This document shows, in pieces, positions 19,859-38,298 of a stretch of DNA of 46,890 bases (positions are counted from its first letter, which is position 1; the number at the start of each line of letters is the position of its first letter). A program made the position numbers and the translations under genes. Origin of the DNA: a virus. The notes below the pieces were generated by a model. It searched no databases. It was not told where the DNA came from and worked only from the letters and a program-made list of their open reading frames with translations. The stretch is from positions 1 to 46,890 of the IMG/VR virus record IMGVR_UViG_3300021474_000009, one strand, 5' to 3'.

Positions 19859-22800
19859 TCAAGGCGTCAGTGTTACCTTACCGCTAAAATTGATCTTTCC
19901 TGAGAATTGTAGTCCAATCGAGCCCTGTTGCATCACCCCGCCAATCGGCGGAGGATTTGAGTAGACGATCCCGAAATAATCATTTGTCGGGATGCCCGTG
20001 TAAGTCGTTCCTGTGCCAACCAAAGGACTGGCCGAAGTGGGGTAGAAGCTGTTGTTTGTGGTGTGGGGGTTGAACGGGTCGAGCTGAGTCTCACTTGTCC
20101 ACGTCTGGGAGGGTTCGTTCAGCATCAGCGGGTCGGCCGTCGTCTCGCCAGGGTAAGTTGCATTTCCGCTACTTCCCGCCCTGAAACTCCAGAAGTTGTT
20201 ATTACTGCGAATCGTCCATGAGGCGTCGGAGAAAGTTCCCGGCGTGCCCTGACAGGATGAGTAGCAGAACGGAGCGATGGTCTGCCCGTTCCACGAAACA
20301 TTGCTCGGGTTAGTGTAGCCGATAAAATTGTTATTCCTGAGAATTCTAGGACCACCCTGACAGTTAGCTGCGGTGAGGCTGGAGACCGATACGGTAAGCC
20401 CTGATGCAGTAGGAGTAGTTAGGTCGTAAGTGTAGACTTCGTTGTAATTCGACGTGGTTGTAACGTTTGCACCCTGAATGAGGCTTAGGCCGGTGACGAC
20501 GCCGCCAGCACTCACAGAAGTAACCGTACCTGTGACGTTTGAGCCGATATAGATAACATCGTTGACCACATAGCCGGTGCCGCCTAGATTCGGGGCAATA
20601 GCGCCAGCGTTGCTCCAGCACGACAGGTCATAGGCTACGTTGTCGCTGGCAGACACGAAGGTGCTGTTGTCCACTTCGAACGAGCCAGCAACAGGAACGA
20701 CTCCAGAGAACGTTGCCCCATCAGCGCGGCAGTAGTCGGAGGCAGCTATCCCATTATAGAAAGTGGCAGGCATTCCGGTGAATGGCTGGGCCAGGCGCCG
20801 GCAGTTGCCATCGGTGACGACATTCTGCATGAACCACGTACCGGTCCCACCCAGGTTGAACTTCCATGTTTGGCCGCCGTTATTGGCCGCATAGGAGTTC
20901 GTTACCGTAACAGCGCCAATCGAGGTGTGCGGGCCAAAGAAAGCATCCTTGACGTTATTGGCAATCTCAAGATTGCTGCCGGTAAACGATGCAAAGTGGG
21001 TGTTCTGCCCGCTCCATGCGTCTCCGAAGCCGCCATTGATAATCGAGTAGCAGGAAACTATAGGAATGGTATCGACAACCGGATATTCTTCATTGCAACC
21101 GTTCCAATCCATCGTTACGTATGAAGCTACGATGCTGGCGAGGGGGTTATCGGGAAACCCTGTTGAGTTCGGTCCTCCAGTCCCTTCATCGAAGTCCCAC
21201 CCAGCAAAGGCGTTCATCGAGGAAGTAACCCGGGTCATCGTAATTGCGCCGCCAATGGCTCCATAAAACCCGGCAGAACTCATCCCGTGAATGTAGACAT
21301 CCTGGAATAATATGTTCGCGGTAGCGTTGCTGGTATAGAAACCATTCGCTCCGAAGTCGTCATAGGGCTGCGAACCGTGAATGCAGCCCACGGGATATGT
21401 TGGGGCGCTACCAAATGAGGTGCAATTCGGCCCGTAGTTCGAGAAAGTTACTCCACCACTGACCGTCGTAGCAATGGAGGTGTTGCTGTAGGCCGCCCAG
21501 GATGGTGTTGAACCGCCTGAAGTGCCTCCTGTCGTTACCCATTCAGTGTTAGTTCCATCAAAAATGTGCTGCCCTACGGTGTAGGCGGTTGTAGGGGCAA
21601 AGGCTGTTCCGCTGCCTACCTTGTTGTGCGTCGTAAACTCTATGCCTTGAATATCGACGTAATTAGACCCACGCAGAGAGAATCCGAAGGTTAGACCGAA
21701 TCCCGTAAAGAGCTGTGTCAGGTTGGCTATGTTCGTAACGTTCCCGGTGTTGCATGGCCCCGGCGTCGAGTCATAAGCGCAGCCGCCGAGGATTCGCGTA
21801 TGCGCCCCGGAAGTTCCCGAAGGTACTGGAGGGTTGATGCACCCGGTGTTGCCTACTGCATAGCACCATGCAGGCGGGTTGTAGCCCGTGGGCGCGTCCC
21901 AACCTAAACGACAGTCCGGGTTGCTGGGGTTGACTTGCGGCCTAGTACCTCCAACGATGGCAGCACAACCACGAATCACAACCGTATCTCCCCCGGCAGC
22001 TACCCATGAGCCAATCCCTACCGTCCCGCTGTGGTCGTCCCACATATAGCGGAAGTCGTTGTAAGCGCAGTTTTGATTTACTCCCGTTCCTCCAGTTGAA
22101 GCGTAGGAGGCATCATAGAGCCCGTTGCACTGGCCCGTAGTGACGTTTGTGGAGTACCTCGTTCCGCCATCGGTTCGAATAAACCACGTGTTATGGGTAA
22201 ACTGTGCCGCGCCTCGGTCCGTTGTGAAGGTGTTTCCGTAAAGGTCTGTCAGGGGATCGTTGGCAGTCACGACGCGACTATTCCAGTCGGCGGAATCAGA
22301 GATGAGGTTGTAGTTCCCGGCTGTCCAGTTGACGAAGGGATTTGGTGCACCGCTGGCCACGTTTACATTGCCAGTTCCCGACGAACCCGTTGTATCGAGG
22401 AAACTATTGTGGTCCTGACTGAACGCCGTGACACTGATTCCGCTTAGAGATGATCCAGTGAGATACCAGAGGTTGTTCTGTGCCACGCATCCAGAGCAAG
22501 CGTTCGTTGTGACGATGCCGGCGTTATTAGTGAAGTTGCCGATCATCGTATTCTGGGAGAGAACAATGTTCGTGCAGGTTTGGCTGGCGTTGATACAGGC
22601 AAAAATGCCATCGCTCGAACGGCAAGAATTGCCGGATGAACAAACTCCTACATTGCCGATGATCTGGAAATTGGTGTGCGTTCCAGTGACAGGATCGACG
22701 GCGACAAAGAACCAGCCGTTAGTGCCCATGTCCCTGAAGATGTTCCACGCGATAGTGGTGTTTGAATCGGTTCCTGTCTCCTGAATCGCTTCACCGTGGT

Positions 22801-23638
22801 TGGTTGATCCATCGAATACTGACCAAAGATAGTTATATTCGAAGATCCCATTGCTCCACCCACCGCTGGAGTTGGTTACGTAAGTCGTCGCTGCGTTGTG
22901 ACCGTACATGTGCTTGTAACTGTTATTGGCCGGGTTGGAACAGAAGCAGAAATATGTCTCAGAGTTGTTGTTTCCAGCCTGATTGATACCAGCGCCCTTC
23001 CATTCTGTTGAGTCCCACGTGATGTCATGCCCGGAGATGTGCATCTCCCCATTGCCGCCATCGCACCCGCCTGTAGAAGTGACAGCATGAGCCCCGGTAC
23101 ATGGGGACGCGTCGATTAGGATGCCGCAGTCGGAGGGCGTAGGAGCCGCGGCGAGTTGCGAGTTGGGGTAGGTATTGGTTGTCCACGTCGGAGGGCTGGC
23201 GAACACGCCGCCGCATCCAATGTTGGTCGTGCCTACGTTCACGCCGTTTCCGTTGATCTTCCAATAGTCTGTGGTGATGGAGACCATCGACCCTGCCGAA
23301 GCCCATGCCCACGAAGCCTGCGATGATCCCATCGTCGAGGTGTTCCAACCGGCCCCTATTCCGCATCCAGATCCAAAGTCGTAACTCTGAGCCTTGCGGA
23401 GTTCGATAACGGTTGTGCCTGAATCCGCTGTGTGTAGCGACAGCGAAGCTCCGTAGGAGCCATCTGCGAAGTAGTAGCTATCTCCCCGCACCCATCCTGC
23501 GCTGCTCGGGACAGCCATCTGGTTATTCCAATCCGCACCAGTTCCAGCACCAGTAGAGGTTGGCCCAACCGCGTGGCACGCGGCCTTGCCTGTAACCGCG
23601 AGAGAGAGCAGGATGACGAGTTGGAGGAGTTTCTTCAT
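19859..23638 (-). CDS. Giant beta-helix tail spike with a signal peptide (1259 aa)
   Basis: Begins MKKLLQLVILLSLAVTGKA, a Sec-type signal peptide, with cleavage before or within AACHAVG. The body is full of short Asn/Ser/Gly strands, as in right-handed parallel beta-helices. Two modules seem joined: one to about residue 480, the second starting near NTWFIRTDGG, each opening with a GADWNN-like or YNDFRYMWDD segment. It is the final gene of the spike cluster, coupled by ATGA. Host-receptor or polysaccharide binding or cleavage is likely; an exported form is possible. Confidence 0.85.
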   Translation of the reverse strand: MKKLLQLVILLSLAVTGKAACHAVGPTSTGAGTGADWNNQMAVPSSAGWVRGDSYYFADGSYGASLSLHTADSGTTVIELRKAQSYDFGSGCGIGAGWNTSTMGSSQASWAWASAGSMVSITTDYWKINGNGVNVGTTNIGCGGVFASPPTWTTNTYPNSQLAAAPTPSDCGILIDASPCTGAHAVTSTGGCDGGNGEMHISGHDITWDSTEWKGAGINQAGNNNSETYFCFCSNPANNSYKHMYGHNAATTYVTNSSGGWSNGIFEYNYLWSVFDGSTNHGEAIQETGTDSNTTIAWNIFRDMGTNGWFFVAVDPVTGTHTNFQIIGNVGVCSSGNSCRSSDGIFACINASQTCTNIVLSQNTMIGNFTNNAGIVTTNACSGCVAQNNLWYLTGSSLSGISVTAFSQDHNSFLDTTGSSGTGNVNVASGAPNPFVNWTAGNYNLISDSADWNSRVVTANDPLTDLYGNTFTTDRGAAQFTHNTWFIRTDGGTRYSTNVTTGQCNGLYDASYASTGGTGVNQNCAYNDFRYMWDDHSGTVGIGSWVAAGGDTVVIRGCAAIVGGTRPQVNPSNPDCRLGWDAPTGYNPPAWCYAVGNTGCINPPVPSGTSGAHTRILGGCAYDSTPGPCNTGNVTNIANLTQLFTGFGLTFGFSLRGSNYVDIQGIEFTTHNKVGSGTAFAPTTAYTVGQHIFDGTNTEWVTTGGTSGGSTPSWAAYSNTSIATTVSGGVTFSNYGPNCTSFGSAPTYPVGCIHGSQPYDDFGANGFYTSNATANILFQDVYIHGMSSAGFYGAIGGAITMTRVTSSMNAFAGWDFDEGTGGPNSTGFPDNPLASIVASYVTMDWNGCNEEYPVVDTIPIVSCYSIINGGFGDAWSGQNTHFASFTGSNLEIANNVKDAFFGPHTSIGAVTVTNSYAANNGGQTWKFNLGGTGTWFMQNVVTDGNCRRLAQPFTGMPATFYNGIAASDYCRADGATFSGVVPVAGSFEVDNSTFVSASDNVAYDLSCWSNAGAIAPNLGGTGYVVNDVIYIGSNVTGTVTSVSAGGVVTGLSLIQGANVTTTSNYNEVYTYDLTTPTASGLTVSVSSLTAANCQGGPRILRNNNFIGYTNPSNVSWNGQTIAPFCYSSCQGTPGTFSDASWTIRSNNNFWSFRAGSSGNATYPGETTADPLMLNEPSQTWTSETQLDPFNPHTTNNSFYPTSASPLVGTGTTYTGIPTNDYFGIVYSNPPPIGGVMQQGSIGLQFSGKINFSGKVTLTP

Positions 23639-24867
23639 TCATCGCCCATGACAACTGGAATCGCATGAGCACCCGCCGATGCCAAGCTAAATGCCCAACT
23701 GGAAAATAACGCGGGACCACTGGAAGTCTGCGTTGACGTGTAGGAGGGGCAGGTTCCCCCCGTATTAGAGGTTTTGTCGAACGCAGTATTTCCCGCAGTA
23801 GAATCGTTTTCACGCTCTGTGTACGGGGCTGGACTGCTACCGGTGCTCCATGTGCTGTTATATTCCGCAAGCTGCATACAGACATCGTAAGTTCCTGAAA
23901 CGGTTAATGCACCAACAGAGCATCCTGCACAATATGAACCGGAAACTGAATAAGCCACCATCTGATTAGCGTCGTAACTCGGGGTATACGTTCCACCCGA
24001 TACGGTGTAATCGAATACAAAGAAGGAAGCGTTCGTCTGGTTCGCTGTAGTCTGTCCTTTCCACTTTACCGTCAGAGAAGTTTCTCCACCGACAGCATTC
24101 AATGTGTAATAGCACTGGTTCCAGTAGTAGTGGCCAGCCTGCATAAGCTGTTGCGGATATTCGATATTCGCTGTGCCGGTTTCAGTTCCGCTGCCTGTCT
24201 GAATATTTCCAACATCGAAGGTGCTACTCGTTCTCGCTATAACGACATTGAACCCCTCTCCGTTGAAGGCCGTGGTTGTGGTGAAGTTGCTCAACTTTAG
24301 GATCTCACCGACATAATAAGAGTTCGTCCCCGTAAAGTGGACGCTGGAAAATGTCACGGTCCCTGATACGGTTCCGGTCGAGGCCGGGGAGAGAGTCACG
24401 GTCGTACCAGAAACCGCAGCAACAATGGTTCCTGCTGCAATATTCGTTCCTGTAACCACTTGTCCATATAGGATACCTGTGCCGGAACCAACGGTCATCG
24501 TGACGGAAGATCCCGAAGTGCTTCCTGTAGTGGTAATGGCGGAATTGGCTGCCCAAGCGGTGACGGAAACGGGACTGATAGTACCGCCATTGTTCAGTGC
24601 TGTCGTCGGTGGGGAAGGAGCCTCTATCCATGTCTCGCCACCGTTAAGTCCATAGCCATAGCCGAAGCCATTCGAACCTTCCGGCGTCCAGCAGGCAAAG
24701 ACAATATCGCCTGCCGTAACCGTAAAGCCGAGCGTCAACGTGCAACTCGGAATCGCCTGACAGTTGTTCGCGTCTCCCGTGAAGGCATAGCGTCCACTGA
24801 CAGACTGGCTTTGTCCGTGCATCGCACAGAAGAGGAACACTATGAAGATAAGATATTTCTTCATCAA
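23635..24867 (-). CDS. Exported beta-rich protein in the spike cluster (410 aa)
   Basis: N-terminus MMKKYLIFIVFLFCAMHGQ is a probable signal peptide. The mature part has a pair of early cysteines (NCQAIPSC), a Gly/Thr/Ser-rich repetitive region near residues 100-180 and further Cys pairs (YCAGC). Domains look like beta sandwiches. Overlaps the genes on both sides by ATGA. Function unknown; a fibre accessory or adhesin is likely. Confidence 0.8.
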   Translation of the reverse strand: MMKKYLIFIVFLFCAMHGQSQSVSGRYAFTGDANNCQAIPSCTLTLGFTVTAGDIVFACWTPEGSNGFGYGYGLNGGETWIEAPSPPTTALNNGGTISPVSVTAWAANSAITTTGSTSGSSVTMTVGSGTGILYGQVVTGTNIAAGTIVAAVSGTTVTLSPASTGTVSGTVTFSSVHFTGTNSYYVGEILKLSNFTTTTAFNGEGFNVVIARTSSTFDVGNIQTGSGTETGTANIEYPQQLMQAGHYYWNQCYYTLNAVGGETSLTVKWKGQTTANQTNASFFVFDYTVSGGTYTPSYDANQMVAYSVSGSYCAGCSVGALTVSGTYDVCMQLAEYNSTWSTGSSPAPYTERENDSTAGNTAFDKTSNTGGTCPSYTSTQTSSGPALFSSWAFSLASAGAHAIPVVMGDE

Positions 24868-27224
24868 TTGGCCTGCACCACGATCTTGCGTGGAATGGTA
24901 ATCGTTGCAGAATAGAAGTTCGCGGTAGATGCTGTGTCGGTCGCTCGTCCGATCTGAACGACCATCATCCCTCCGGCAACGCAGCCAGTAGTGTCGGTTG
25001 AGTTCATCTGCACGTTGGTCGTATAGAAACCGTTTGAGACGGCCGAAGCTCCTACCGTAATGGTGCTGAGGCTGTGAGCCGTCGCAAAGGTAGCGTCATC
25101 CGTCGTCGTGCCATTGACCGCAGTGGGGCATGACACCTGGATTTGCGGGATGATCGTGTGGCCGCTGGTTACGTCCGTAGAAGATAGATCAACCTCGATG
25201 TACGGTTCCGTCCCGGTATCCCAGTCCTTCGGAATATGAACGTTGAACTGAGCGAAGGTTGAGGACGTGTCGGTGATCGAAACATACCCGCCCTTGTTGT
25301 TCGTACCTGCACGACAAGTTACTGTACCGCCTGAGCCGATGGACCACCCTGCTCCGCCTGTTGCGTTGTTGCAATTTGCGGCGGGAACATCGAGGGTTTG
25401 TGGAAAGTCAATGAAGGATGGCGCGGAGCTAGACCCATTGCCTGTCAGAATCGTGCCCGCTGCGCCTGCTGCGGTTGAGGCGGGAGCATTGCCTGCGCCA
25501 CCACCGTAAACGACGCCATCCTGCGTTAGTGCAGCAGAGGACGCCCATGTAGACGACGAAGAGAAGTAGGGGACGCCACCGGAAGTTCCTGCCACAGTAA
25601 AGGCTGGAGTGGTCGTGGGGGATCCGACTGAGATGAGACCTCCAGTAAACCCTACGCTGGTTACTGTTCCGCTGGTGCTGCTCCCCAAAAACGTTACATA
25701 CCACTTCGATGTTCCATCGTAGGTGAGCTGGTAAGCATCACCTGTTGTAGCAGTGAAGGCTGTATTGACATTTCCTGCAGTTGTGATGTTCCATGATCCA
25801 TCAGCAATCAAAACAAATTGGCAGGCATAGCTGCTCCCGCATCCGGTTGGCGGGGTAATCGTGTTGATCGTGGCTGTGCCGGTGACGTGTTCTACAGCTC
25901 CCTGCGGAGCGATGGTGGACGCTGACGCGATAGACCCGCCATTGTAACTGGCAAAAAGGTATCCGTTTACGTCGCTATTGCTTCCAATCGGACCCGTTGC
26001 ACTTAGGCTACCCGCGAAGGACGCATTTCCCCCTGGCGTCATGGTGATGTTCGTGCCGCAGAGATTGAGCGTCCCACCTGTCGCCGCTACGGTGATGGCG
26101 CATGAGCCGCTGGTTGAGCCAAACATAGTGATCGTTGGGGTGCCAGTTCCCGCGATATCAACGGGTTCTGAAGATGTAATCGCGCCAGTATTTGAAACGC
26201 CATCGTCAAGGTGTGAATTAGCAGTGATGGTCGTCGCAGAGCCCGCCAGCGGAATATAGCCTGTCGTCAGACCGGAGATACCGGAACTACCCGAGCTATT
26301 GATCGTCTGATTTGGCCATGATCCTGTAATCGTGATGTTCGTCCCAGCGACCAAGGCCGGTGAGGATGTGCCGGTACCGCCGTTCGTTATTGGCAATAGG
26401 CCTGTTACTCCGCTGCTCAGAGGGAGTCCAGTAAGGTTCGTTGCCACACCGGATGCTGGCGTACCGAGTGCGGGAGCGGTGAAGGTTGGAGAGGTAAGCG
26501 TTAGTCCGCCGATGGTCGTTGTCGTGCTGCTGGAGGCAATGGAGGTAGAGCCGATGGTTATCGGAAACCCGCTTGCGCCACCAGAGGAATTGATGGTCTG
26601 GTTTGGCCACGTCCCGGAGATTGTTACATTTGTGCCTGCGACTAGAGCAGGGGAAGCTGTGCCTGTACCACCATCGGCGATAGGAAGCAAGCCTGTTGCT
26701 TGCGTTGCGAGATTCAGACTTCCGCCGATCTGGGAAAAGGTGTAATCGTTCATTGCAGCAACAACTGCGCCGGTTCTGCCGAAGACACTTGAAACCGCTA
26801 CGCCTCCTCCACTTCCACCAGCCGCCGTTACTGCATAAGGGCCAAAGCTTCCATAGCTTGCCGTAATCGAGTAAGAGAACTGCTGTCCCGCTGGCAACCA
26901 CGCTCCAAACGCTCCAGTAGAATCAGCCGTGGAATAGCAAACACCGCTACCGTTACGGGTAAGCGGTTGGTTTGATGGGCAAGTCGATAGTCCTGCCGCA
27001 GACGTGTAGGTGGTAACCGGAAGATTGCACAATCCGCCAGGAGTGGCCGATTGACAGAAAGTAATCGTCGCGCCGGGAATGGCAAGCAATGGAACCAGCC
27101 CGCCTGTCGGCGCACCCTGCGTTGGCGGTCCTACGGTTTCTGCTGTCCAATCCCATCGTACCTGTGCTGACGCCACTCCTGCCAGCAGCCCGAGCATAAA
27201 GAGTAGTGTCAGAATTTTCTTCAT
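24864..27224 (-). CDS. Tail fibre with signal peptide and four-Cys N-terminal domain (786 aa)
   Basis: Residues 1-20 form a signal peptide ending GVASA before QV. Residues 22-130 are a domain with cysteines 57, 66, 82 and 96 that also opens the next fibre gene. Then comes VFGRTGAVVA..NDYTFSQIGG, a motif seen in many phage fibres, and two copies of a roughly 39-residue module (177-215 and 274-312) with GGTGT-SPALVAGTN. The C-terminal part is a beta-rich receptor-binding-like region. Confidence 0.85.
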   Translation of the reverse strand: MKKILTLLFMLGLLAGVASAQVRWDWTAETVGPPTQGAPTGGLVPLLAIPGATITFCQSATPGGLCNLPVTTYTSAAGLSTCPSNQPLTRNGSGVCYSTADSTGAFGAWLPAGQQFSYSITASYGSFGPYAVTAAGGSGGGVAVSSVFGRTGAVVAAMNDYTFSQIGGSLNLATQATGLLPIADGGTGTASPALVAGTNVTISGTWPNQTINSSGGASGFPITIGSTSIASSSTTTTIGGLTLTSPTFTAPALGTPASGVATNLTGLPLSSGVTGLLPITNGGTGTSSPALVAGTNITITGSWPNQTINSSGSSGISGLTTGYIPLAGSATTITANSHLDDGVSNTGAITSSEPVDIAGTGTPTITMFGSTSGSCAITVAATGGTLNLCGTNITMTPGGNASFAGSLSATGPIGSNSDVNGYLFASYNGGSIASASTIAPQGAVEHVTGTATINTITPPTGCGSSYACQFVLIADGSWNITTAGNVNTAFTATTGDAYQLTYDGTSKWYVTFLGSSTSGTVTSVGFTGGLISVGSPTTTPAFTVAGTSGGVPYFSSSSTWASSAALTQDGVVYGGGAGNAPASTAAGAAGTILTGNGSSSAPSFIDFPQTLDVPAANCNNATGGAGWSIGSGGTVTCRAGTNNKGGYVSITDTSSTFAQFNVHIPKDWDTGTEPYIEVDLSSTDVTSGHTIIPQIQVSCPTAVNGTTTDDATFATAHSLSTITVGASAVSNGFYTTNVQMNSTDTTGCVAGGMMVVQIGRATDTASTANFYSATITIPRKIVVQAN

Positions 27225-30200
27225 CAGTTCCTCGCTATACAGCCATAACCGATTACGTCTGTTCCGGTTCCTGTAACCGTCAAAGTAGTGCTCGTCACCA
27301 CGAAGCTAGGCGTCGCTGTCGGGGTAGTGTGATCGTGGATGAAACACTCAGGGCGGTTGGTGTAGGTATTTACAAACGTGTAACTCCCAGTCCCGCCTGA
27401 AAGAGTGATCTCGCCAACCATGTCCGTATTGGTTGCTAACCCGCTCTTTAGTGTCTCGGCAATCGTCGCTGTGCCGCCAACGTAAAGAGTTCCAGAGGTA
27501 TCGGTATTCGTAGGAGAGCCTGTCGGACTTGGAGCCTGACCGGTGTCAGGGCAAGCTGGATTATTGTTCGGTACGACAGTCGTTGACGCAGAACAAATAC
27601 GTCCAGCCGTTCCTCCTGTAACCCTCCATACTTCTTGACTCACCGTGCCGGGGGCGATCTGGCAGACTACGTTGTTGTAGTTCGTTCCAGAGAGCGTGGC
27701 GTTACCCGAGCCCGTTGCCGCAGAGACGTATGTGGAGTGGCCTCCGTTCAATGTAACCGAGGCTACCAAATAGGTATAGGACGTGCTTCCTGGAGTTCCG
27801 ATGTTGTAAACCGCACAGTTTGTAGGTATTTGTGCCGCAGCCGAAATCTCACCAGCTACAAGCTGCCCAGTTCCCAGCGTTGCCGATTGATCGCCATTGA
27901 TCGGAGTCGAAAGGAATGTAGTCGTATTGGCTGCTGTACCTCTGCCGAGCGCAACGAAGTTCGCAGTTGTAAATACAGGGGCGGTGAAGAATTCTGAGTT
28001 CGGAGCAGTGGGCTGTGCTGATCCTCCACCGTTGATGCCGATGGACTGGCCGCCTTCTATGTAGCCATTCTGGACTATGAAATTATTGTCATTCGTTAGT
28101 GCCCATCCGCGAACCTCGGGCCACCACTCCGCAGCAAGCAAACCGTCCATGCCGGTTAGATAAGATTGGTGCGTGTTATCTCCGCAACCATCCAGCGGGC
28201 AGTTAATTGCGATAGTAGAGAATCCGGGCTGGGCTGGATCGGTGTGAATGACATCAGCCCATGCACCCTGAATACTTATCCCTTGTGGGGGAGGATACGA
28301 ACCTCCATTGTCGAAATATAAACCGGCATTCGGAGTTCCGAACTGATTCAGATTTTGCAGGACAATACCGATAGCTCCGCCGTTGGTCCCGTTGATGCCT
28401 CCACCTTGCATGGCGATATTGAGTGGACCAGTAGAGGTCGTCGCGTCGGGTCCATTGATCTGGTAGACATTGCGAATACCGAAACCGAAGATCGAAGGAT
28501 TAGGGCCAGTCGAGTAGGTATCGCCAGCAGTGAAGGTTACGTCATTGACATCCAGCGGACAGCTTGTAGTCGTGCTTCCTTGAGTGCAGGGTTGGGTAAT
28601 TTCAACGCCTTTGTAGAGATTCGCTGCAAACACCGAAGGCGGATAGGAGATCGTTGCAGAGGCGCAAGTGCCAGTAGCTCCGGTTTGGTTCCACGTCAAA
28701 ATGAATCGAGTTGGATCAATCGTAAATACTGTGGCGGAAGTGGTGTTGTAGGAGGAGTTACCGGGGCAGGAGAGAACCGCCGTTTTGATGAAGGAGCCGG
28801 TTGAACCGATGCCGGTATAGTAAGGCCCGCACATGTTGGTTGGCAAACCGCCTGTTACTGTGGTTCCCGTAGTCGTCAACCCAGTAAGTGTTACTCCAGC
28901 TCCGCATGTGCTCCATTGCGTATTTGGGGGGACGGGATTTGAAGCCGATACAAACTCGCAAGCTAAGTGCGAAGAATCAACCGATCCAGGGCACGAATAT
29001 TGATCGGTCCATCCGTTGGCCGTCCATAGACCAGAGGTATAGTAGCCGTTCGTGCCACCCTGCCAGATGGAACTTGAAGCATTCGTTGGCGCAACTCCGT
29101 GGAGCAGACGTGGAGTAAGGACGGCGGTCTGCAACTTTGTGCTGATCGCAGAGAAAAATGTTCCTGTATATCCCGCGATAGCAAACGTCGGAGTGCTTGT
29201 GTACCCTGTTCCGGGATTCGTAACGTACAAGTAGTAAGGAACACCTGCGGAACAAGCAATCAGAGCTTGTGCCCCAGTTCCCCCGCCACCAGTCGCATTG
29301 ACGAGATGACCGCCATCGGGACATCCCATTCCGAATGGAGGCCCGGTAGCTCCAACGCTTATCACTCCACCAGTAAATCCGCTAACGCTGGATAGTTTGA
29401 CCCGTTCGACTTCCCCGCCAGCCAACCATGATGCTGTCCCAGATGTGTCATTGGCTAGAGCCGTTCCAGCGCCGTAATTGCAATCAAAAGTAACGGTTAC
29501 GGGAGTTGGCGAAGCCGGGTTGATCGACTGCATGATGCCAGGTACAACTTGGCCGCCATACATCCATGTCACACCACCGTCTATAACCGGAACGCCCGGC
29601 ACCGGAGAAGAAAAGGCCGCTGGAACCGTACCGCCTGAAGTACCACCATGCACCACAACCCACCGCAAACTATTCGCGCTGTAGTTGATCTGCGCTCCTA
29701 GTGCGTAAGTCGTGTTGGCGGTCCACGTTCCGTAAAGCGTTCCCAGCATGGAGCACTGCGTGGATTGCGTCAGTGAGGCGTCTACGGGGAAGTAAAAAAC
29801 TCCCATGTTCGTATAGGTTGTGTTCGCCCCGGTTGCATGGAAGTTCGACAGCACTGGAGTCTGCGTATCGTAAATTACGGCATTGGTAGGCTCAAACGGT
29901 CCTGCGCCACCAGAGGTCAGGGTTACAGTCGTTGCTCCCGCCGCTCCTGTTGCTGAAACCGTACCAGAGAAGAAATAGCTAGCGGGACGTTGAACTGTAT
30001 GCAGACCAAGTGCCGCGCAACCTTCAGCAGCCGGGTCCGTATCTCCACCGGTGCAGTTTACCGTAAAGCCGCCAGCCTGATCGTCGCCACCCTTATTGCC
30101 GTTGATCGTAAAGTTGACACCCTGAAAGATTCCGGGAGTGTAACTGTTCGTCTGCCCCACGATGCCAAAGCAAGTCGCCCAGTCTGGGCCAATTGGAGAT

Positions 30201-30934
30201 AGTCCGTTGCCTCCAATGTCCCATCCGGGAGCAAGACAATTGCCCGACATCTCCAGAGCTTGGTAGGAGTTAGAGAACGAAGGCCCTTGTGCGGGATTTC
30301 CTGAAGTGTTGAGAGCGATACTCGCGACATTGGCGAAGTATCCACCACCAAGAGGATCGGTAACAGAACTGTAGGCCGGGTTGGTTTGAGATATGACTTC
30401 AGCGGCAAGACCCAATGCATGCGGTGTCGTATAGAAAGTAAATGTAGGGTCAGTCTGTGAACCTGTAGCCGCAGCATTGGCAAACTGCACCGCAAAGGCT
30501 GGAGGAGATACCCCGCCACCACCTCCAGACGAGCCTGGAGCATTGGCTGAATACGGGCCAAACGTCCCGTAAGTAGTAGTAATCATGTACTGAAACGCAG
30601 TACCAGGGGGAACCCACATCCCCCAGTTTCCGCCCGCATCTGCTGTAGAAAAACACCCCACCACATTAGGACGGGTTAGCGGTGTAGCAGTCGGGCAAGA
30701 TGCAGCTCCGGTATTGTCCGTGAATGTAGTAAGCGGTGTAATGCAAGGTGTAGGTGTAGTTACGGTGCAGACATTGATTTGAGCGTTACTGATTCCAAGG
30801 ATGGGAACAAGAGAGCCGGCAGGTGCAGGCACACCGGAAACAGGATTCCCGGTAGTGGAGGCCATGTTGTCATAGCGCACTTCCTGAGCCATGCACAAAG
30901 GAGCCAGAAAGAGGAAAAGCAGCGGCTTTTTCAT
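27224..30934 (-). CDS. Giant tail fibre/spike with signal peptide (1236 aa)
   Basis: Residues 1-16 are hydrophobic (KPLLFLFLAPLCMA) before QEV, a signal peptide. Residues 18-128 are the four-Cys domain (56, 64, 80, 94) shared with the neighbouring fibre gene, followed by a Gly-rich hinge. The rest is mostly beta structure with scattered Cys pairs and a GNATLSGTNYNN region near the end, as in spike tips. It is the first of the four exported-type genes, starting directly at the stop of an ejection-type gene. Confidence 0.85.
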   Translation of the reverse strand: MKKPLLFLFLAPLCMAQEVRYDNMASTTGNPVSGVPAPAGSLVPILGISNAQINVCTVTTPTPCITPLTTFTDNTGAASCPTATPLTRPNVVGCFSTADAGGNWGMWVPPGTAFQYMITTTYGTFGPYSANAPGSSGGGGGVSPPAFAVQFANAAATGSQTDPTFTFYTTPHALGLAAEVISQTNPAYSSVTDPLGGGYFANVASIALNTSGNPAQGPSFSNSYQALEMSGNCLAPGWDIGGNGLSPIGPDWATCFGIVGQTNSYTPGIFQGVNFTINGNKGGDDQAGGFTVNCTGGDTDPAAEGCAALGLHTVQRPASYFFSGTVSATGAAGATTVTLTSGGAGPFEPTNAVIYDTQTPVLSNFHATGANTTYTNMGVFYFPVDASLTQSTQCSMLGTLYGTWTANTTYALGAQINYSANSLRWVVVHGGTSGGTVPAAFSSPVPGVPVIDGGVTWMYGGQVVPGIMQSINPASPTPVTVTFDCNYGAGTALANDTSGTASWLAGGEVERVKLSSVSGFTGGVISVGATGPPFGMGCPDGGHLVNATGGGGTGAQALIACSAGVPYYLYVTNPGTGYTSTPTFAIAGYTGTFFSAISTKLQTAVLTPRLLHGVAPTNASSSIWQGGTNGYYTSGLWTANGWTDQYSCPGSVDSSHLACEFVSASNPVPPNTQWSTCGAGVTLTGLTTTGTTVTGGLPTNMCGPYYTGIGSTGSFIKTAVLSCPGNSSYNTTSATVFTIDPTRFILTWNQTGATGTCASATISYPPSVFAANLYKGVEITQPCTQGSTTTSCPLDVNDVTFTAGDTYSTGPNPSIFGFGIRNVYQINGPDATTSTGPLNIAMQGGGINGTNGGAIGIVLQNLNQFGTPNAGLYFDNGGSYPPPQGISIQGAWADVIHTDPAQPGFSTIAINCPLDGCGDNTHQSYLTGMDGLLAAEWWPEVRGWALTNDNNFIVQNGYIEGGQSIGINGGGSAQPTAPNSEFFTAPVFTTANFVALGRGTAANTTTFLSTPINGDQSATLGTGQLVAGEISAAAQIPTNCAVYNIGTPGSTSYTYLVASVTLNGGHSTYVSAATGSGNATLSGTNYNNVVCQIAPGTVSQEVWRVTGGTAGRICSASTTVVPNNNPACPDTGQAPSPTGSPTNTDTSGTLYVGGTATIAETLKSGLATNTDMVGEITLSGGTGSYTFVNTYTNRPECFIHDHTTPTATPSFVVTSTTLTVTGTGTDVIGYGCIARN

Positions 30935-31909
30935 TTATTCCACCAGCTTCCGAAGATAATGACCTGCTATTCCTCCACCAACTGCTGCCGGAACCGCAAT
31001 CTTGCCACCGTTTTTCGCTACGTCCTTCAGGATCGCGGCCCGGCGATACTCTTTCATTGCGTCTGCATAGTCTTGACCCATACCTTTGGTATCGGCAGCG
31101 TTTTTGATGTCCTCAAATAACCCACCTTTCAACTGCTTGATACCGCCCTTCATACTCCCACCGATCCCCTGCTTTTCCAGGACGGAGGGGTTGGAAAGGT
31201 TCTCCTGAAACAGTCGAGCTTCGGGGTAATTCATAGGAAAGGTGGCCTGCGAACGATTTAGCAGTTTATTAGCCGTCGCGGGCATAGAAGGCCCAGTAGC
31301 ATCAATCTCCGCAATTCTCTGTAGATGTGGCGTAGTGTTGGCGAGTGTCACCGGTTGATCCTTTAAAGCCGCTCCTAATGTGTCAAATTTGGCCGCAGCG
31401 CGACCAGTGCGAGGTATAGCATCAATACCCTTCACCAGACCGCCAGCGGCCTCACCTGCAAGCGTAGAAGAGAGCAAATGCCCCGCTGTATCGGTAGCTG
31501 CTTTTTCGGGTCCACCCTCCTGATATGACTGATTAGCCGATTGAATCAAACTCTTTACTGGCCTATAGGCAGGACCGCCCACTAAGTCGCCCACTGCGTC
31601 ACCGATGGACATCTTTGGCGATTGCTGCGCTGCTGCTTTGAATTGCGATGGTGCCGAGACGAAATCATTCAGCGCCGTCCTGCCGATATTCCCGACAGGA
31701 CGCAGCGCTTCCGGGTAACCTCCTTTTCCGGGACCGGGATTGTATTGTGTCGATGGTGCAGCAAAGGCTGCTGGAGGATGTGCAGGAAGTTGCGGAGGCC
31801 CACCTTCTGGAGCACCAGCAACCGATTCAGACGCACCGCCATACTTCGCCCAAGGAGGAGGAGCGGAGGAGGCGTCAGGCTGCGCGTATTTATCCCAGGG
31901 TCCAGCCAT
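30935..31909 (-). CDS. Internal virion/ejection protein candidate (324 aa)
   Basis: Proline- and Ala-rich disordered N-terminus (WDKYAQPDASSAPPPW), then helical segments and a C-terminal Gly/Ala-rich stretch (VPAAVGGGIAGHYLRKL) that could insert in a membrane. Its place after the nozzle-type gene and before the fibres matches the T7 gp14-16 region. ATG overlaps the stop before it (TAATG). Confidence 0.68.
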   Translation of the reverse strand: MAGPWDKYAQPDASSAPPPWAKYGGASESVAGAPEGGPPQLPAHPPAAFAAPSTQYNPGPGKGGYPEALRPVGNIGRTALNDFVSAPSQFKAAAQQSPKMSIGDAVGDLVGGPAYRPVKSLIQSANQSYQEGGPEKAATDTAGHLLSSTLAGEAAGGLVKGIDAIPRTGRAAAKFDTLGAALKDQPVTLANTTPHLQRIAEIDATGPSMPATANKLLNRSQATFPMNYPEARLFQENLSNPSVLEKQGIGGSMKGGIKQLKGGLFEDIKNAADTKGMGQDYADAMKEYRRAAILKDVAKNGGKIAVPAAVGGGIAGHYLRKLVE

Positions 31910-33372
31910 TACTTCACCTTCTCCCAGTTCGATTGAACTTTAGGATCGCCACCCTTGAACTTATATCCGTCTTCTACGTCACCGGCTTTAGGACCGGCCT
32001 GACCACCGCCGCCCTGATGCATTGCGTTCATGTTCTGCGTCGTCCACTGATCGATGTGCTGGATAACCGCTTTTAGGTTTTCAGGGGTTTGCTTTGGAGC
32101 GTTGATTGCGTGGTCGAACTCTTCCCGCAGATTCTCAGGTAACCGTCCTCTGGCGTGCATCAACGCAACCGCGCTGGAATACATCAACAGATCAGAGCGA
32201 AGTCCCGCCATATCAGGATTATCCATGCCAACTTTGCCCTGCATAAATTCGTTCCATCGACCGGCCACAGGACCAAGAAGAGGCGCGAGGCGATCAATCT
32301 CCTGTAGCATCATCGGAGTTTGTTCATGCACTAGAGAAGCTTGCGCCCCAACATTCCTCATTTGAGTAGTCGGGGTATTCAGCGAGTTCACGCCTGCAGC
32401 CGTCTGCGCTCCCGGAGCAACCGTCTGCCCAGCGGTGAGACGTTCTACCGTCCCGCCTCCCTGACCATTCGGCACGATCATGGTGATTCCGGGTGCCTGC
32501 GTTGGCTTCTCTCCGGTCGGACCTTGGTCGGAATCGTACTTTTTCGTTGCGGGATTCCAAGCCATGTTATGAGGCTTTCCACCAACTTCAACCTGAATCA
32601 CTTTAGGAGCGCCGGCTTCCTTGTTCTCCCCCGGTTGAATCGATGTAATAGCGTCCGCAAATCTTTGCACATTTGGATCTTGCTGTGGATCGCGGTCCTC
32701 CTGAATCGCATTCTGCACCGCATCCGCATGCATCTGGAGCAAGGAATCCTTCTTTGCCTTGGTATCCTTCTCAATTTCCGCCTGCGTGAGAGCGTGGGTA
32801 TCCGCAGATTTCTGCGGCATCTCCGCAGTCTCTTCATTCACATGGCCCGTCTGCGCCTGCGTCAATCCGGTCTGAGCCTGCTTTTCGTCTTCAGCTACAT
32901 CCTGCCCAACCTGCCGCTGATCCTGATGAATCCCCATCATGTGGTGATATTGCGTTCCAGGCAAGTTAATCGCCAGAGAAGGCGCAACTGCACTCAAGGC
33001 AGTATCACCCAACGTCGCAATTCCCTGCGCACCATAGCCTAAAATCTTTCCCAGAGTAGGATGATTCTGGCCAAAACTGGAGTTTTCAATCTTGTTGTGG
33101 ATCTGCGAAATCCCACTTCCGGTCGAAAGCTTGCGCGAAAGCTCTGCCTGATCGCCCTGCGTTGTTCCACGTGGAGCAGTGATAGCTGGCATCTGAGGCG
33201 AACCAACCGCAGGAACGGGATTCGCCATCTTCGATACCGTACCCATCGGCGGAGCATCGGGAGCAGCCTTTGGCGGGACAACTCCGGGCAACGACAGGCC
33301 GGGATGCCACGGCTGGGGCGCAGCAATCAGTTGCTTTCGGAGTTCGTCCTCATCGTCCATCGGATCAGCCAT
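31909..33372 (-). CDS. Internal virion protein candidate (487 aa)
   Basis: Long, mostly helical, Gln/Asp/Ala-rich. The middle has coiled-coil stretches (DVAEDEKQAQTGLTQAQTGH) and the C-terminal third has LAPLLGPVAGRWNEFMQGK. No enzyme motif (no transglycosylase). Neighbours on both sides look like ejection proteins. The start adjoins the stop before it. Confidence 0.68.
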   Translation of the reverse strand: MADPMDDEDELRKQLIAAPQPWHPGLSLPGVVPPKAAPDAPPMGTVSKMANPVPAVGSPQMPAITAPRGTTQGDQAELSRKLSTGSGISQIHNKIENSSFGQNHPTLGKILGYGAQGIATLGDTALSAVAPSLAINLPGTQYHHMMGIHQDQRQVGQDVAEDEKQAQTGLTQAQTGHVNEETAEMPQKSADTHALTQAEIEKDTKAKKDSLLQMHADAVQNAIQEDRDPQQDPNVQRFADAITSIQPGENKEAGAPKVIQVEVGGKPHNMAWNPATKKYDSDQGPTGEKPTQAPGITMIVPNGQGGGTVERLTAGQTVAPGAQTAAGVNSLNTPTTQMRNVGAQASLVHEQTPMMLQEIDRLAPLLGPVAGRWNEFMQGKVGMDNPDMAGLRSDLLMYSSAVALMHARGRLPENLREEFDHAINAPKQTPENLKAVIQHIDQWTTQNMNAMHQGGGGQAGPKAGDVEDGYKFKGGDPKVQSNWEKVK

Positions 33373-33930
33373 TTATTCCTTTCCTGCTGCCGCCGCCGCC
33401 ACTTGTCCACCGCTGGCCACGCCCTGCAACATCAATTGCTGCCAGAAATTGCTCAGGCTTCCCGCATCCTTCAATGCTCCGGTAGACAGCCCCAGCGCAT
33501 TTTCCCCAGCGCCTACATCCTCTCCGTACAATGCGCCTTCACCCGCCAGACCTTCCTGTTGCTGTTTCGCCTTGAGATCGGCATTCTTTACTTGCAGACC
33601 AGCGTTGATCTGGCTCAAATCCTGACTTGCCCCGCGATCAGCCGCAGCGCTGGCGGCCTGTCCTGATCCAATATTCCTTGTTCGATTAGCTCTCAGTCCA
33701 GCTTCACCTACTCCCGCCGCAGCTCCACCGCCCGCCGTCTGCTCTGCCGCAGTCGTCATTGCTCCCATAGTCGCTGGGCTATATCCTTGCGGGTTGGTCG
33801 CTTCCGCCTGCAATTGAGGCTGCAGAGAAGACTCAATCCCTAAAGCATTCGCAGAATACTGATTCGAAAGGTTATTGGCGGTGCCGCTGTTTGATAACAG
33901 ATCACCCTTGATTCCTGAGTGTCCACCCAT
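33373..33930 (-). CDS. Small internal virion protein candidate (185 aa)
   Basis: Ala/Gly/Gln-rich helical protein (AMTTAAEQTAGGGAAAG, then AGLQVKNADLKAKQQQEG), ending GQVAAAAAGKE. Composition like T7 gp14 or other DNA-ejection proteins, though not clearly homologous. Start overlaps the stop of the GNAT-like gene. Confidence 0.68.
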   Translation of the reverse strand: MGGHSGIKGDLLSNSGTANNLSNQYSANALGIESSLQPQLQAEATNPQGYSPATMGAMTTAAEQTAGGGAAAGVGEAGLRANRTRNIGSGQAASAAADRGASQDLSQINAGLQVKNADLKAKQQQEGLAGEGALYGEDVGAGENALGLSTGALKDAGSLSNFWQQLMLQGVASGGQVAAAAAGKE

Positions 33931-34319: not shown

Positions 34320-34846
34320 TGGCGTTTGGGCGGATTCGTACCGCGAAATGGGATGATGCCGAAACCTGAAATCTGCCCCGGTGTTCCAGTACCCGATCCC
34401 TGCCCAGGTGGCACAGGAGGAGGGTTAGTCCCCGTTGAAGTGGTCATGGGGTGGTAAACCGGAGCACTTGGGGAAGACGTGGGGTAGTCGGAATAAGCTC
34501 TCCACCACAAGGGCTGTATTCCTACTGGGATTCGCGCATCTCGGGATGGCCCCATGTGATGTGTCACCGGAGCGGAAAGTCCCTGATCCGTTCCATACTG
34601 CACGTGGTAATTGATCCCACGATAAATCTGGTTGTTATCGGTGATCTGAACATGCGCAACTCCGCCATTGACAACGACTTTCAGAGCATTGATCTGCGGA
34701 GGCGGAGCCTGATCGGTTCCCGCTGGATTAAGATTTGCTTGTTGCGACACATTTCTGATGGCTTGCTGGATATCAGAAAATGCCTCAGCAACCCGCTCTC
34801 CCCAGACAGGAATCGTTCTGATATACGGGATGTTCCTGATATTCAT
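34316..34846 (-). CDS. Virion-type protein with fibronectin III-like domain (176 aa)
   Basis: ATG 34846 overlaps the nozzle-gene stop (TGATG) after GGGGAG. The N-terminus is a helix (RVAEAFSDIQQAIRNVSQQ); residues 50-125 form beta strands with the AHVQITDNNQIYRGINYHVQ pattern of a fibronectin III/Ig domain; the tail is Pro/Gly-rich. Likely a tail accessory. Confidence 0.7.
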   Translation of the reverse strand: MNIRNIPYIRTIPVWGERVAEAFSDIQQAIRNVSQQANLNPAGTDQAPPPQINALKVVVNGGVAHVQITDNNQIYRGINYHVQYGTDQGLSAPVTHHMGPSRDARIPVGIQPLWWRAYSDYPTSSPSAPVYHPMTTSTGTNPPPVPPGQGSGTGTPGQISGFGIIPFRGTNPPKRQ

Positions 34847-37800
34847 CAGAAACTCCCCGAAACGGATCCGCGAACCTTGGCCCACGGTGAAGGCATCATG
34901 TTGACAACCAGCTTTTGCAGACTGAAGTAAGCATCTGTCTGCCCCAGCAGCGGCAATACCTGAATCTTAAAGGCGCATCGGCTCGTCTCTACATTCAACC
35001 CTGATTCAAGATCGAACGGCTGATCGGCATTCAACGCCAGATTGAGCGTCGATGGAAAGAGATTTGATAACGTCGCTCCCAAAGGAGTGATGTTGAACAT
35101 CCCGCTTCCTTCAATGTAGGCCGTGATGTAAGTGTAAAGTTTTCTATGGCTTCCAACCTGTAGAGCCTGCTCCATCTCGTGCGATACAAAGAAGTAAGTC
35201 GTATAGTAGCTAAAGATTTGCCCGTAATCGTCATCCGTATATTTAGCCGAATTGAGTGTGTAGGCATTCGTTCCGCCAAAGACGATCTGCGGAGCGCCTA
35301 AAGCATCACCGGGACGGTACATTAGTGCGCCCGACTGCAATGGAACGCTCCAACGCGTCCATTTCCTTGTCAGATCGGAAGCAATCATCTTGCCGGTAAA
35401 TGAGATATGGACCGGAGGGGAGGAAGCAATACCCTCCCCGTCTAAGTTCCGGTAGTCAAGGACCAGCAGTTGCATCGAACTTCCAACAGGCAGGCCAAAG
35501 AAACAGCGTTTGCTGATCTGATCGTTAGCTGCCCAGGCAAGAGCGGCCAGCGATTCGTCGGTATTCTCCCATATCGATTCAATCTCCTGCGAAATCTTCA
35601 TGGGCTGCTGTCCTGTAAAGATCTGGGCTCCGTCCGGTCCACCCCACGCCATCCACTCTTTACCCGAAGATCCGATTCCCTGAACGTTTCTGGCAATCGA
35701 GGAAATAGACCATGCCCCACAATTATCGGCTACATGGCGGAACCCCCACTCGGAGGGTTCCGTTGTCCCGTTATCGATGGTTTCATGCAGGGAACCACCG
35801 GTAACGCAGTTCAATGTGTCGCGGATCACTCCCCAGTTGCGGATCGCGGTGTTATCGTCTTCCGGCCCGGCTATCCCTGTGAGCCCATCAACCCCTTCAG
35901 GATTATCCTCGTAGCTAAATTTCGCCTCGGTATCGTTGAAAGACTGAGCAGTGTAATAGATCGATATTTCGTCTACTGTAAACGTGCCTGAAGTGCCTTT
36001 GATCGATAGCAGAAGATCTGCTGGGATGGTTGTCGGTGTCGAAGCGCTGAAGTTCGCGGTATACCATCCTGTACCCGTAAAAGTTATGGTTGCCGTCGAA
36101 GCAAAGGCCGTGGTCGCGCTTGTCAAGGTAGCAACAAAGGTTCCCGCGCCTACAAGATAGACACGAATGGAATAGGCAGTGTTTGGAAGCGCAATCGAGT
36201 CGCTGTAGGCATCCTGCCAAAACGATTGGCTGAGTTGACCTGTACCCGTTCCGGTGTTGATCTGCCATCCCATACCGCTAAATCGGGTATTGATTAACCC
36301 TCCGCCAGTAGTGACTAAAGTCCATCCGGTAGGAGCGATAGGAAGTGACGGATCTAAATATCCGCCATCGAACCCCATATTCAGCAGATTCTCAACCTTG
36401 TTGTAATCCCCCCACGCAACCAGACGGCTTGAATATGTGAAAAATCCTGCACATGGACCCAAGACGACTTGTTCCACCAGATTGTTGCCGGGAACCGATA
36501 TTCCAATACCGGTATAAAGCGTGTTGTCAGAGATATCGAGAATTGTCGTTCGAGTCGTATTGTCGTTCAACTGAGTTGCCGTTGAAACTACTTGGCCGTT
36601 GACTTGCGCCGGAACGGGAAGATAGAAGAAATATGCTCCCCCAGCACCGGTCAAAGCGAGGATTCGCGCAATCACATTCGGCGGTCCCAGAGGGATGTTG
36701 CTGACCGTCAGATATTGACCGCCATTCGCGGTAAAAGTGACCGGAGGCGATGGTTCTGTGATTGCATTGGTCGCCGTCAGAAACAAAACCTGTAACTGAT
36801 GCACTCCGGGGGTGATCTGACCGACCGGTGTCAGCGTCCCAATATCGGTAGAGCTGGCGTTAGGACCATACTGCTGGTACTGAATCCACGTCCCGTTAGG
36901 ATCAACCGCCGTAACATAAAATGTTCCATCCCATGAAAAACTGACATCGCCACCCGACCAAGTACCATCGGGGTAACTAATGGCCACAGTAAAAGTTGTA
37001 GCAGTCGGAGCCTCAACTACCTGAAAGAAGTTGGCTGCAGGATCGGACGATGCCAGCGGCCAGTAATACTCCACAGTGCCACCGGTCAGGGTTGCGTTGG
37101 CCTTGACTTCCGCATAGGTAAAGGTGGTTGGTGAGGGCACAGTCTGAACCGTGAAGATAACAAACGGCCCTCCAGTAGATTGTACTAGCACTTCCGACCC
37201 TACCGAAAGTCCATGCGGAGTGCTAGTTGTTACGGTAGAAATATCGGATATCGTAACAATGTTGACGATGGAGGTTCCAACCACGGTATTTGGGACATTG
37301 TTGATGGTTACGTTATTGAGCGGCAACAGACCATGCGCGGTGTTGGTCGTTACCGTGGCAATACCCGGATTATCTTCATTGTCGATAACGATAGAGGCAA
37401 TTCCACCGCCAACCTGTGTTGCCGTGATGCCGGAAATCTGCGCCTGATAGCCAACCTGAAAGTTAGCCGCAGCGGTGGAATAAGCCGTTACCGTGTTGCT
37501 TGCCCGAATGATCGACACTCCGGGCTGGACAGCAGTTCCACCTGTTCCCGTATCGCTCGATGTCTGATAGTAAGAGACTTTAAACTGCGTTGGAGAAATG
37601 ATCGTCTCAATTGTCCATGTGCCATTGAAAAACCCGGTATTTCCCGAGATGACCACACTCACAGCCGGGTTATACGTTACCGGTGCTGACAAAGTGACCG
37701 TAAAGCTCAGCCAGACCACACCGCCGTGAAACGGCAGCAGATGAGAGTCTGTGGAAGTGATCGAAACAATTGATCCAGTGACTCCAGAACTAACGAATAG

Positions 37801-38298
37801 CGGACCTGAAGGGATAATAGTGCTGGAAACCGTGGGAGGCGTTCCTGGGCCATCCTGGGTCACTCTGTAGACGTTTGTGCCGTCGTATTGCAGCGGGATA
37901 TCGTAACCATGAACCCCGTTCGAGAGAGCTATGTATTCCCGGCCAAACGCTGTCACTGATTCCGCCCGAGTCGCCAGAGTCGTAAACAACAAAGTCGCCG
38001 TTCCCGGGGATACGGTTAGATCCTCGACGTACATGTTGCCCGCAGAGGTGAGGTAGAGGTTCTTTATGTTTCCGTTAGGCGTCTGAAAGCTTTTCTCATA
38101 GACGACCTGCCCCGCATCGAGCGCAGAGGTAAAGATCTTCTGCAGCGCCGGCCTTGTCGATACGGTTCCTGGAGTGAAAACGACATCTTGATTGTCGGGG
38201 GAAATGCCCTCGGGAATGTCAGACGGCGATAGCTCCGTATCCAGTGAAGAAAACAGAGACAAAGGCACATCGACAGACCCGAGAGCATTGATCGCCAT
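34846..38298 (-). CDS. Large tail nozzle-type protein (1150 aa)
   Basis: The N-terminal SPDNQDVVFTPGTVSTRPAL segment is typical of T7 gp12-like tubular (nozzle) proteins. The middle has two or more repeated modules of about 70 residues, such as ISTVTTSTPHGLSVGSEV, alike to E1-type FCCH beta modules often inserted in phage tails. The C-terminal end QKLVVNMMPSPWAKVRG is well formed. Forms the distal tail tube in podoviruses. It follows the adaptor gene, as expected. Confidence 0.8.
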   Translation of the reverse strand: MAINALGSVDVPLSLFSSLDTELSPSDIPEGISPDNQDVVFTPGTVSTRPALQKIFTSALDAGQVVYEKSFQTPNGNIKNLYLTSAGNMYVEDLTVSPGTATLLFTTLATRAESVTAFGREYIALSNGVHGYDIPLQYDGTNVYRVTQDGPGTPPTVSSTIIPSGPLFVSSGVTGSIVSITSTDSHLLPFHGGVVWLSFTVTLSAPVTYNPAVSVVISGNTGFFNGTWTIETIISPTQFKVSYYQTSSDTGTGGTAVQPGVSIIRASNTVTAYSTAAANFQVGYQAQISGITATQVGGGIASIVIDNEDNPGIATVTTNTAHGLLPLNNVTINNVPNTVVGTSIVNIVTISDISTVTTSTPHGLSVGSEVLVQSTGGPFVIFTVQTVPSPTTFTYAEVKANATLTGGTVEYYWPLASSDPAANFFQVVEAPTATTFTVAISYPDGTWSGGDVSFSWDGTFYVTAVDPNGTWIQYQQYGPNASSTDIGTLTPVGQITPGVHQLQVLFLTATNAITEPSPPVTFTANGGQYLTVSNIPLGPPNVIARILALTGAGGAYFFYLPVPAQVNGQVVSTATQLNDNTTRTTILDISDNTLYTGIGISVPGNNLVEQVVLGPCAGFFTYSSRLVAWGDYNKVENLLNMGFDGGYLDPSLPIAPTGWTLVTTGGGLINTRFSGMGWQINTGTGTGQLSQSFWQDAYSDSIALPNTAYSIRVYLVGAGTFVATLTSATTAFASTATITFTGTGWYTANFSASTPTTIPADLLLSIKGTSGTFTVDEISIYYTAQSFNDTEAKFSYEDNPEGVDGLTGIAGPEDDNTAIRNWGVIRDTLNCVTGGSLHETIDNGTTEPSEWGFRHVADNCGAWSISSIARNVQGIGSSGKEWMAWGGPDGAQIFTGQQPMKISQEIESIWENTDESLAALAWAANDQISKRCFFGLPVGSSMQLLVLDYRNLDGEGIASSPPVHISFTGKMIASDLTRKWTRWSVPLQSGALMYRPGDALGAPQIVFGGTNAYTLNSAKYTDDDYGQIFSYYTTYFFVSHEMEQALQVGSHRKLYTYITAYIEGSGMFNITPLGATLSNLFPSTLNLALNADQPFDLESGLNVETSRCAFKIQVLPLLGQTDAYFSLQKLVVNMMPSPWAKVRGSVSGSF

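Follow-up and report, generated by a model that had tools for sequence, protein, structure and literature searches.

Predicted Sec signal peptides on four consecutive spike- and fibre-size genes in the tail block of a podovirus-like phage

We examined IMG/VR virus record IMGVR_UViG_3300021474_000009 (the whole stretch of 46,890 bases is referred to as the window), focussing on four large genes of its tail block which appear to encode exported spike or fibre proteins. The window carries a large terminase and a major head protein, and its SU10-type adaptor (PF24175) implies a podovirus-type tail. All four open reading frames of spike or fibre size were confirmed: P0001, P0002, P0003 and P0004 (1236, 786, 409 and 1259 amino acids (aa)) lie consecutively on the minus strand, directly after the nozzle and internal-protein genes and with the adaptor gene nearby. 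Adjoining genes of this block are joined by stop-start overlaps, as an initial annotation of the window had described. The positions given in that annotation were correct for three of the genes; for the third, placed at 23635-24867, the ATG at 24864 is most likely the start rather than the TTG at 24867.

All four N-termini start with a pair of lysines, after which come a hydrophobic core and a small-x-small motif; each is predicted to be a cleavable Sec signal peptide (SP). Glutamine stands at +1 in three of the four predicted sites, which agrees with the earlier observation that it follows the cleavage site in most of them. SPs were called with a home-made detector which looks for a positive n-region, a hydrophobic core and a small-x-small cleavage motif; it gave false positives for SU10 gp17 and for the nozzle protein of one relative (L012), and long leaders, which it missed, were read by eye or with relaxed rules. 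Among controls from the same loci, 6/432 upstream non-fibre genes (1.4%) and 1/76 nozzle genes were positive, as were 14/891 shuffled N-termini (1.6%). The relaxed rules returned 4/220 head genes (controls overall 1.4-1.8%). Because control positives are so rare, four SP genes in a row are not due to chance, and the claim of four consecutive tail-block genes with cleavable Sec signals stands. The proteins, in whose mature parts scattered cysteine pairs had been noted, are also rich in cysteine, with 1.5-2.5% vs 0-0.5% in the neighbouring tail and internal proteins (30935-38298). Such a run had been called unusual, and in comparison with ordinary phages it is, as there is no SP on the tailspikes of P22 and epsilon15 or on the SU10 tail fibre; within the soil-phage lineage described below, however, it is the rule.

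Scans of P0001-P0004 against PHROGs and Pfam gave no useful family, and no Pfam match of any kind, including beta-helix or lytic domains. A direct IMG/VR scan found no relatives of P0001 or P0003, and AlphaFold2 produced no usable model of P0003 alone (predicted local distance difference test (pLDDT) 35). The C-terminal part of P0004 (about residues 476-1255) is conserved in two relatives (L125 and L126) and weakly matches “virion structural proteins” of the phages Tunturi_1 and Tunturi_4. Because the four proteins are almost without family matches, relatives were sought in IMG/VR with the 1150-aa nozzle-like gene and the 487-aa neighbouring gene, giving 83 loci.

SP-bearing fibre-like genes are common in these relatives, where the initial annotation had suggested looking for the trait, and their position is almost always the same. 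When the count was restricted to loci whose sequence reached 6.5 kb or more past the nozzle (45 after removal of duplicates), an SP fibre-like gene was found downstream in 35 and anywhere in 39, and 56 of the 70 downstream fibre-like genes in those loci have an SP. Four of the six loci lacking SP genes (L069, L070, L071 and L073) belong to a clade with SP-less spikes. To the left of the first SP spike there usually lies a homologue of the 324-aa protein which also adjoins P0001 in the window and, where the contig extends beyond this homologue, SP genes usually come next. Several SP genes often follow one another (L008, L040, L035, L045 and L063); in L125 and L126 the run ends in a P0004 homologue and is followed by lysis-type genes. 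The SP spikes are a lineage trait rather than a product of chance. Separately, genes of ~270-430 aa lying upstream near the portal gene have an SP in some phages (L046:98-1390, L062:595-1437 and L066:336-1151) and none in others (L023:375-1295, L041:143-1063 and L065:72-992).

P0001 and P0002, but not P0003 and P0004, share an N-terminal domain (N-domain) of ~110 aa. A profile of it matches about 40 genes, with the domain directly behind the SP in each, and in 37/37 aligned cases it starts immediately after the cleavage site (usually Gln at +1). The signal sequences vary widely, whereas SP features and the cleavage junction persist in 37/37 and the mature protein still begins Q-x-x-R-x-D. Because the SP features and the junction persist while the SP sequences diverge, the signal looks to be maintained by selection. 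The number of cysteines in the domain is even in 37/37 (33 with four, 3 with two and 1 with six), and the column pairs 74-92, 41/43-55 and 17-28 (alignment numbering) are gained or lost jointly. Even counts and co-varying pairs lead us to predict disulfides, and with them folding outside the cytoplasm, as the simplest cause of the pattern. Over whole proteins, median cysteine content is 1.88% in SP fibres vs 0.73% in the nozzle proteins of the same loci, the SP fibres being higher in 38/40 loci. A scan with a closer N-domain alignment mostly matched contigs already among the relatives and added four new loci, of which L115 and L116 were poor matches without a clear SP gene. Five spikes were also seen to have an extended leader, in which the SP comes after a further membrane segment and a loop of conserved sequence (ERDWPRSTWRGL-like; ERDWPRSTWRG-like). 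The coordinates of these features are listed in Table 1.

Table 1 Features of the tail block in the window, and spikes with extended leaders in relatives.
Feature	Coordinates	Strand	Description
P0001	27224..30934	-	Spike/fibre gene, 1236 aa, 29 Cys; predicted SP followed by virion-binding-like N-domain
Sec signal peptide of P0001	30887..30934	-	MKKPLLFLFLAPLCMA|QEVRYD; predicted cleavage before Gln17
N-domain of P0001	30551..30886	-	Residues 17-128; 4 Cys, two co-varying pairs
P0002	24864..27224	-	Spike/fibre gene, 786 aa; predicted SP and same N-domain as P0001
Sec signal peptide of P0002	27165..27224	-	MKKILTLLFMLGLLAGVASA|QVRWDW; predicted cleavage before Gln21
N-domain of P0002	26835..27164	-	Residues 21-130; AlphaFold2 model, pLDDT 87
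P0003	23635..24864	-	409 aa; composition resembling that of fibres; predicted SP; no relatives in IMG/VR scan
Sec signal peptide of P0003	24808..24864	-	MKKYLIFIVFLFCAMHGQS|QSVSGR; predicted cleavage
P0004	19859..23638	-	1259 aa; predicted SP; 32 Cys
Sec signal peptide of P0004	23582..23638	-	MKKLLQLVILLSLAVTGKA|ACHAVG; predicted cleavage
Internal/tail-block protein	30935..31909	-	324 aa; no SP; 0 Cys
Internal/tail-block protein	31909..33372	-	487 aa; no SP; 0 Cys; query for finding relatives
Nozzle-like tail protein	34846..38298	-	1150 aa; named by position; lineage marker for the tree
SU10-type adaptor protein	38707..39504	-	PF24175
Extended-leader spikes	L003:14415, L012:11432, L024:18245, L028:18219, L039:18392		

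Spikes of about 400-450 aa without an SP were found in one deep-branching clade (L067, L069, L070, L071 and L073) and in L056 and L059. These start with M-A/S-x-x-R-x-D or similar and contain 0-1 cysteines where counted. Comparison of the SP-less and SP N-domain profiles gave E 2.2e-8 (probability 95%), and a profile built from the SP-less members alone matches the SP members L011 (3e-10), L049 and L082; judged by these matches, the N-domains of the SP spikes and their SP-less sisters are homologous. On the unrooted nozzle tree the SP-less spikes require two changes. The initial annotation had suggested that the signals might come from captured host secreted genes. If they were relics of such genes, or hydrophobic N-terminal plugs, and the proteins stayed in the cytoplasm, the SP features and cleavage junction would hardly be kept while the SP sequences diverge, nor would the cysteines co-vary in pairs which the SP-less homologues lack. 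Gene traffic with host chromosomes does exist, as an Acidobacteriota genome (G282) contains an orphan SP and N-domain fibre gene (contig 28, L119:1266-4682, 1138 aa). Capture is nevertheless the weakest full account of the run, and we regard cytoplasmic proteins with relic signals as very improbable. Vestigial signals were rejected on the same grounds, the retention of SP features amid divergence and the co-variation of cysteine pairs. The orphan gene lies in a region of bacterial chromosome with no obvious prophage; close to it, on the opposite strand, is another SP fibre-like gene.

In some relatives the N-domain occurs as a separate SP-less protein, of 171-173 aa in L080 (from 17616), L081 (from 16974) and the prophage of the Acidobacteriota genome G274, and of about 171 aa at L101:6322-6837. 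These small proteins adjoin SP fibres without that domain, a possible split into anchor and fibre. Their presence beside SP fibres in L080, L081 and the G274 prophage, together with the restriction of the N-domain to P0001 and P0002 in the window, would suit a division of roles, in which SP proteins with the N-domain are virion spikes and the others secreted helpers, or in which one product exists in free and virion-bound pools. The tight packing of the genes in one block suggests joint use instead, and we think such a division rather improbable.

AlphaFold2 modelled the N-domain with a pLDDT of 87 from the 37-sequence alignment. The best PDB structure matches of this model are the tail complexes of the cyanopodophages Pan3 and Pam1, and the head-binding domains of the Sf6 and P22 tailspikes were likewise listed among its matches (Foldseek). 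VIA-align gave Z values of 7.5, 7.2, 6.8 and 5.8 for these matches, with a root-mean-square deviation of 2.5-4.1 over 80-89 residues. The predicted fold is thus nearest to the virion-binding domains of podophage tailspikes, with moderate support from the model. A search of PDB sequences with the SP N-domain profile found nothing. One relative (L016) has a full tailspike layout, in which the SP and N-domain are followed by a pectate-lyase-type beta-helix (PF12708).

This resemblance bears on the main rival explanation, that the proteins are exported through Sec but are not part of the virion, serving as late secreted or surface adhesins, decoys or polysaccharide-degrading enzymes. Bacterial exported fibre-like proteins of this kind are known (MAT of Bdellovibrio, PMC10769870; WceF, PMC7949094), some of the SP genes encode plain enzymes such as the GDSL hydrolase in L008, P0003 and P0004 have no anchor domain, and the orphan gene in G282 sits in a bacterial chromosome. 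In the tail block of most relatives, however, no spike- or fibre-like genes were seen other than those with an SP, and on this reading the virion would be left without receptor-binding proteins; moreover, the N-domain is homologous to that of the spikes of SP-less sister phages as well as resembling tailspike virion-binding domains. We therefore consider a purely secreted role unlikely, although less so than a division of roles. Of the three readings first offered for the run, which were partly supported overall, the one that agrees best with the added evidence is that the spikes are assembled outside the cytoplasm, given the tailspike-like domain behind the SP, the co-varying cysteine pairs and the SP-less, cysteine-poor homologues.

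We also looked for the hosts of this lineage. A model built from the closer nozzle subset was used to scan one genome each of 84,980 species, and the single match was to a contig of an Acidobacteriaceae metagenome-assembled genome. A search of 396 Acidobacteriota genomes then identified a prophage-like region in G274 with a terminase, a nozzle, SP fibres and a phage lysozyme; further along that contig come bacterial genes, among them acetate kinase, phosphoketolase and PfkB. Apart from G274, most matches of the nozzle model in Acidobacteriota genomes covered only a short length (E 1e-6 to 1e-10) and were discarded. Since the prophage sits in a bacterial contig, the hosts are taken to be Acidobacteriota.

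Cultured phages of Tunturiibacter, a genus of Acidobacteriaceae, were available for comparison (Tunturi_1, Tunturi_2 and Tunturi_4; PMC11924767; PP887698, PP885685 and PP885687). The podophages Tunturi_1 and Tunturi_2 have five SP genes in the spike block (1.3-2.7% cysteine), which their depositors annotated as tail spike, tail fiber, pectin lyase and virion structural protein, among others, and Tunturi_4, a siphovirus, has two SP tail genes. Tunturi_3, isolated like Tunturi_1 and Tunturi_2 on Tunturiibacter psychrotolerans X5P2, has fibres without an SP and with < 0.9% cysteine. SP genes are thus not confined to one tail type, nor does the host require them; a general host need for SP fibres was rejected on the evidence of Tunturi_3. 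It should be noted that the lineage N-domain profiles matched no proteins of Tunturi_1, Tunturi_3 or Tunturi_4, and the nozzle profile none of Tunturi_1. The paper describing these phages (PMC11924767) does not mention signal peptides and reports no virion proteomics or mass spectrometry.

Taken together, export and oxidative folding of the spikes are strongly suggested by their sequences. Our proposal is that P0001-P0004 are Sec-exported, disulfide-bonded tailspike or fibre proteins of a podovirus-like Acidobacteriota phage which dock at lysis, and we hold this to be somewhat probable. After synthesis with cleavable signal peptides, the proteins would cross the inner membrane, lose the signal to signal peptidase I, and fold and form disulfides in the periplasm. 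P0001 and P0002 would dock on the tails of DNA-filled virions once lysis mixes the compartments, and P0003 and P0004 may attach to those two spikes or serve as enzymes or adhesins exported alongside them. We infer docking at lysis from the tailspike-like N-domain, the tail-block position and the lack of other spike-like genes there; membership of the virion and binding of a receptor or polysaccharide are likewise inferred. Such docking would accord with P22, whose tailspikes are the last components to join finished heads and can be added in vitro. For the wider generalisation, that in a large group of Acidobacteriota tailed phages the spikes pass through Sec, are folded and cross-linked in the periplasm and complete the virion no earlier than lysis, we put the chances at about even.

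Several points weigh against this proposal. Export, cleavage and presence in the virion are predictions from sequence, which gives no route for a periplasmic spike to a tail built in the cytoplasm, and P0003 and P0004 are without the N-domain. Cysteine content alone is not decisive, as it is 1.2% even in the P22 tailspike, a protein of cytoplasmic origin. The match in structure is moderate: the best Foldseek E is 6e-3, a Z of 7.5 can be reached by unrelated domains, and prealbumin-like domains (CnaB and carboxypeptidase-D) come next with Z values of 6-6.6. The best PDB sequences for the SP-less profile are Pan3 tail spike chains at an E of only 0.04, and neither N-domain profile finds P22 gp9 significantly.

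In the textbook view, tailed phages are completed in the cytoplasm. If our proposal is true, the virion would be completed at or after lysis and the receptor-binding part of a tailed phage would be assembled outside the cytoplasm. Such spikes could acquire disulfides that survive acid soil, could be shared among the virions of one lysis and could act on the cell's own surface prior to release. Tunturi_1 and Tunturi_3, with SP spikes and SP-less fibres respectively on one strain, make the question directly testable. Annotators of soil viromes may also use the SP to recognise spike genes, which mostly had no family-library match here.

Some further features of the window were observed. Nearly all relatives share a small gene that follows the nozzle/189-aa pair and lies at 33930-34319 in the window; Pfam gave no family for the window copy, and the gene in the comparable place in Tunturi_1 and epsilon15 is annotated as an acetyltransferase. 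Outside the tail block, on the plus strand, a gene at 15610-16431 has a putative export signal (MKLAIVILLSVSASVWG|QQ) and 5% cysteine, and another at 15386-15670 has a lipobox-like export signal (MKSKFIYTALLLGVMG|CKS).

In comparison with known systems, the predicted N-domain fold of P0001 and P0002 best matches the podophage tailspikes of P22, Sf6, Pam1 and Pan3, which have a beta-rich N-terminal virion-binding domain of ~110 aa, a large beta-structured part for receptor or polysaccharide and a gene in the tail region. P22 gp9 and epsilon15 gp20, however, have no SP and are taken to fold in the cytoplasm, in contrast to the SP and cysteine pairs seen here. The MAT fibres of Bdellovibrio consist of an SP, a conserved beta-rich domain of ~130 aa, a phage-fibre-like shaft and diverse tips (PMC10769870), a layout resembling that of P0001 and P0002. 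MAT genes are bacterial and their products are deployed on the predator surface, whereas P0001-P0004 are encoded in a phage tail block; many MAT proteins end in an S74 domain, which was matched by no SP protein scanned here. WceF of Pantoea stewartii is also exported with a tailspike-like trimeric beta-helix fold (PMC7949094), but is a bacterial enzyme of an exopolysaccharide cluster which uses Tat. Tunturi_1, Tunturi_2 and Tunturi_4 are alike in being Acidobacteriota phages with SPs on cysteine-rich tail spike, fibre or virion-structural genes, and differ in the siphovirus tail of Tunturi_4 and the lack of N-domain profile matches noted above. In the open-access literature searched (subscription papers being mostly outside its scope) there was no report of SP-bearing tailspikes in tailed phages. 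Tailed phages are known to export endolysins through Sec, an example being Lys44 of fOg44 (PMC6116005); this is a lysis enzyme rather than a spike, and P0001-P0004 contain no Pfam lytic domain, but it too is a tailed-phage protein placed outside the cytoplasm before lysis by a host Sec signal.

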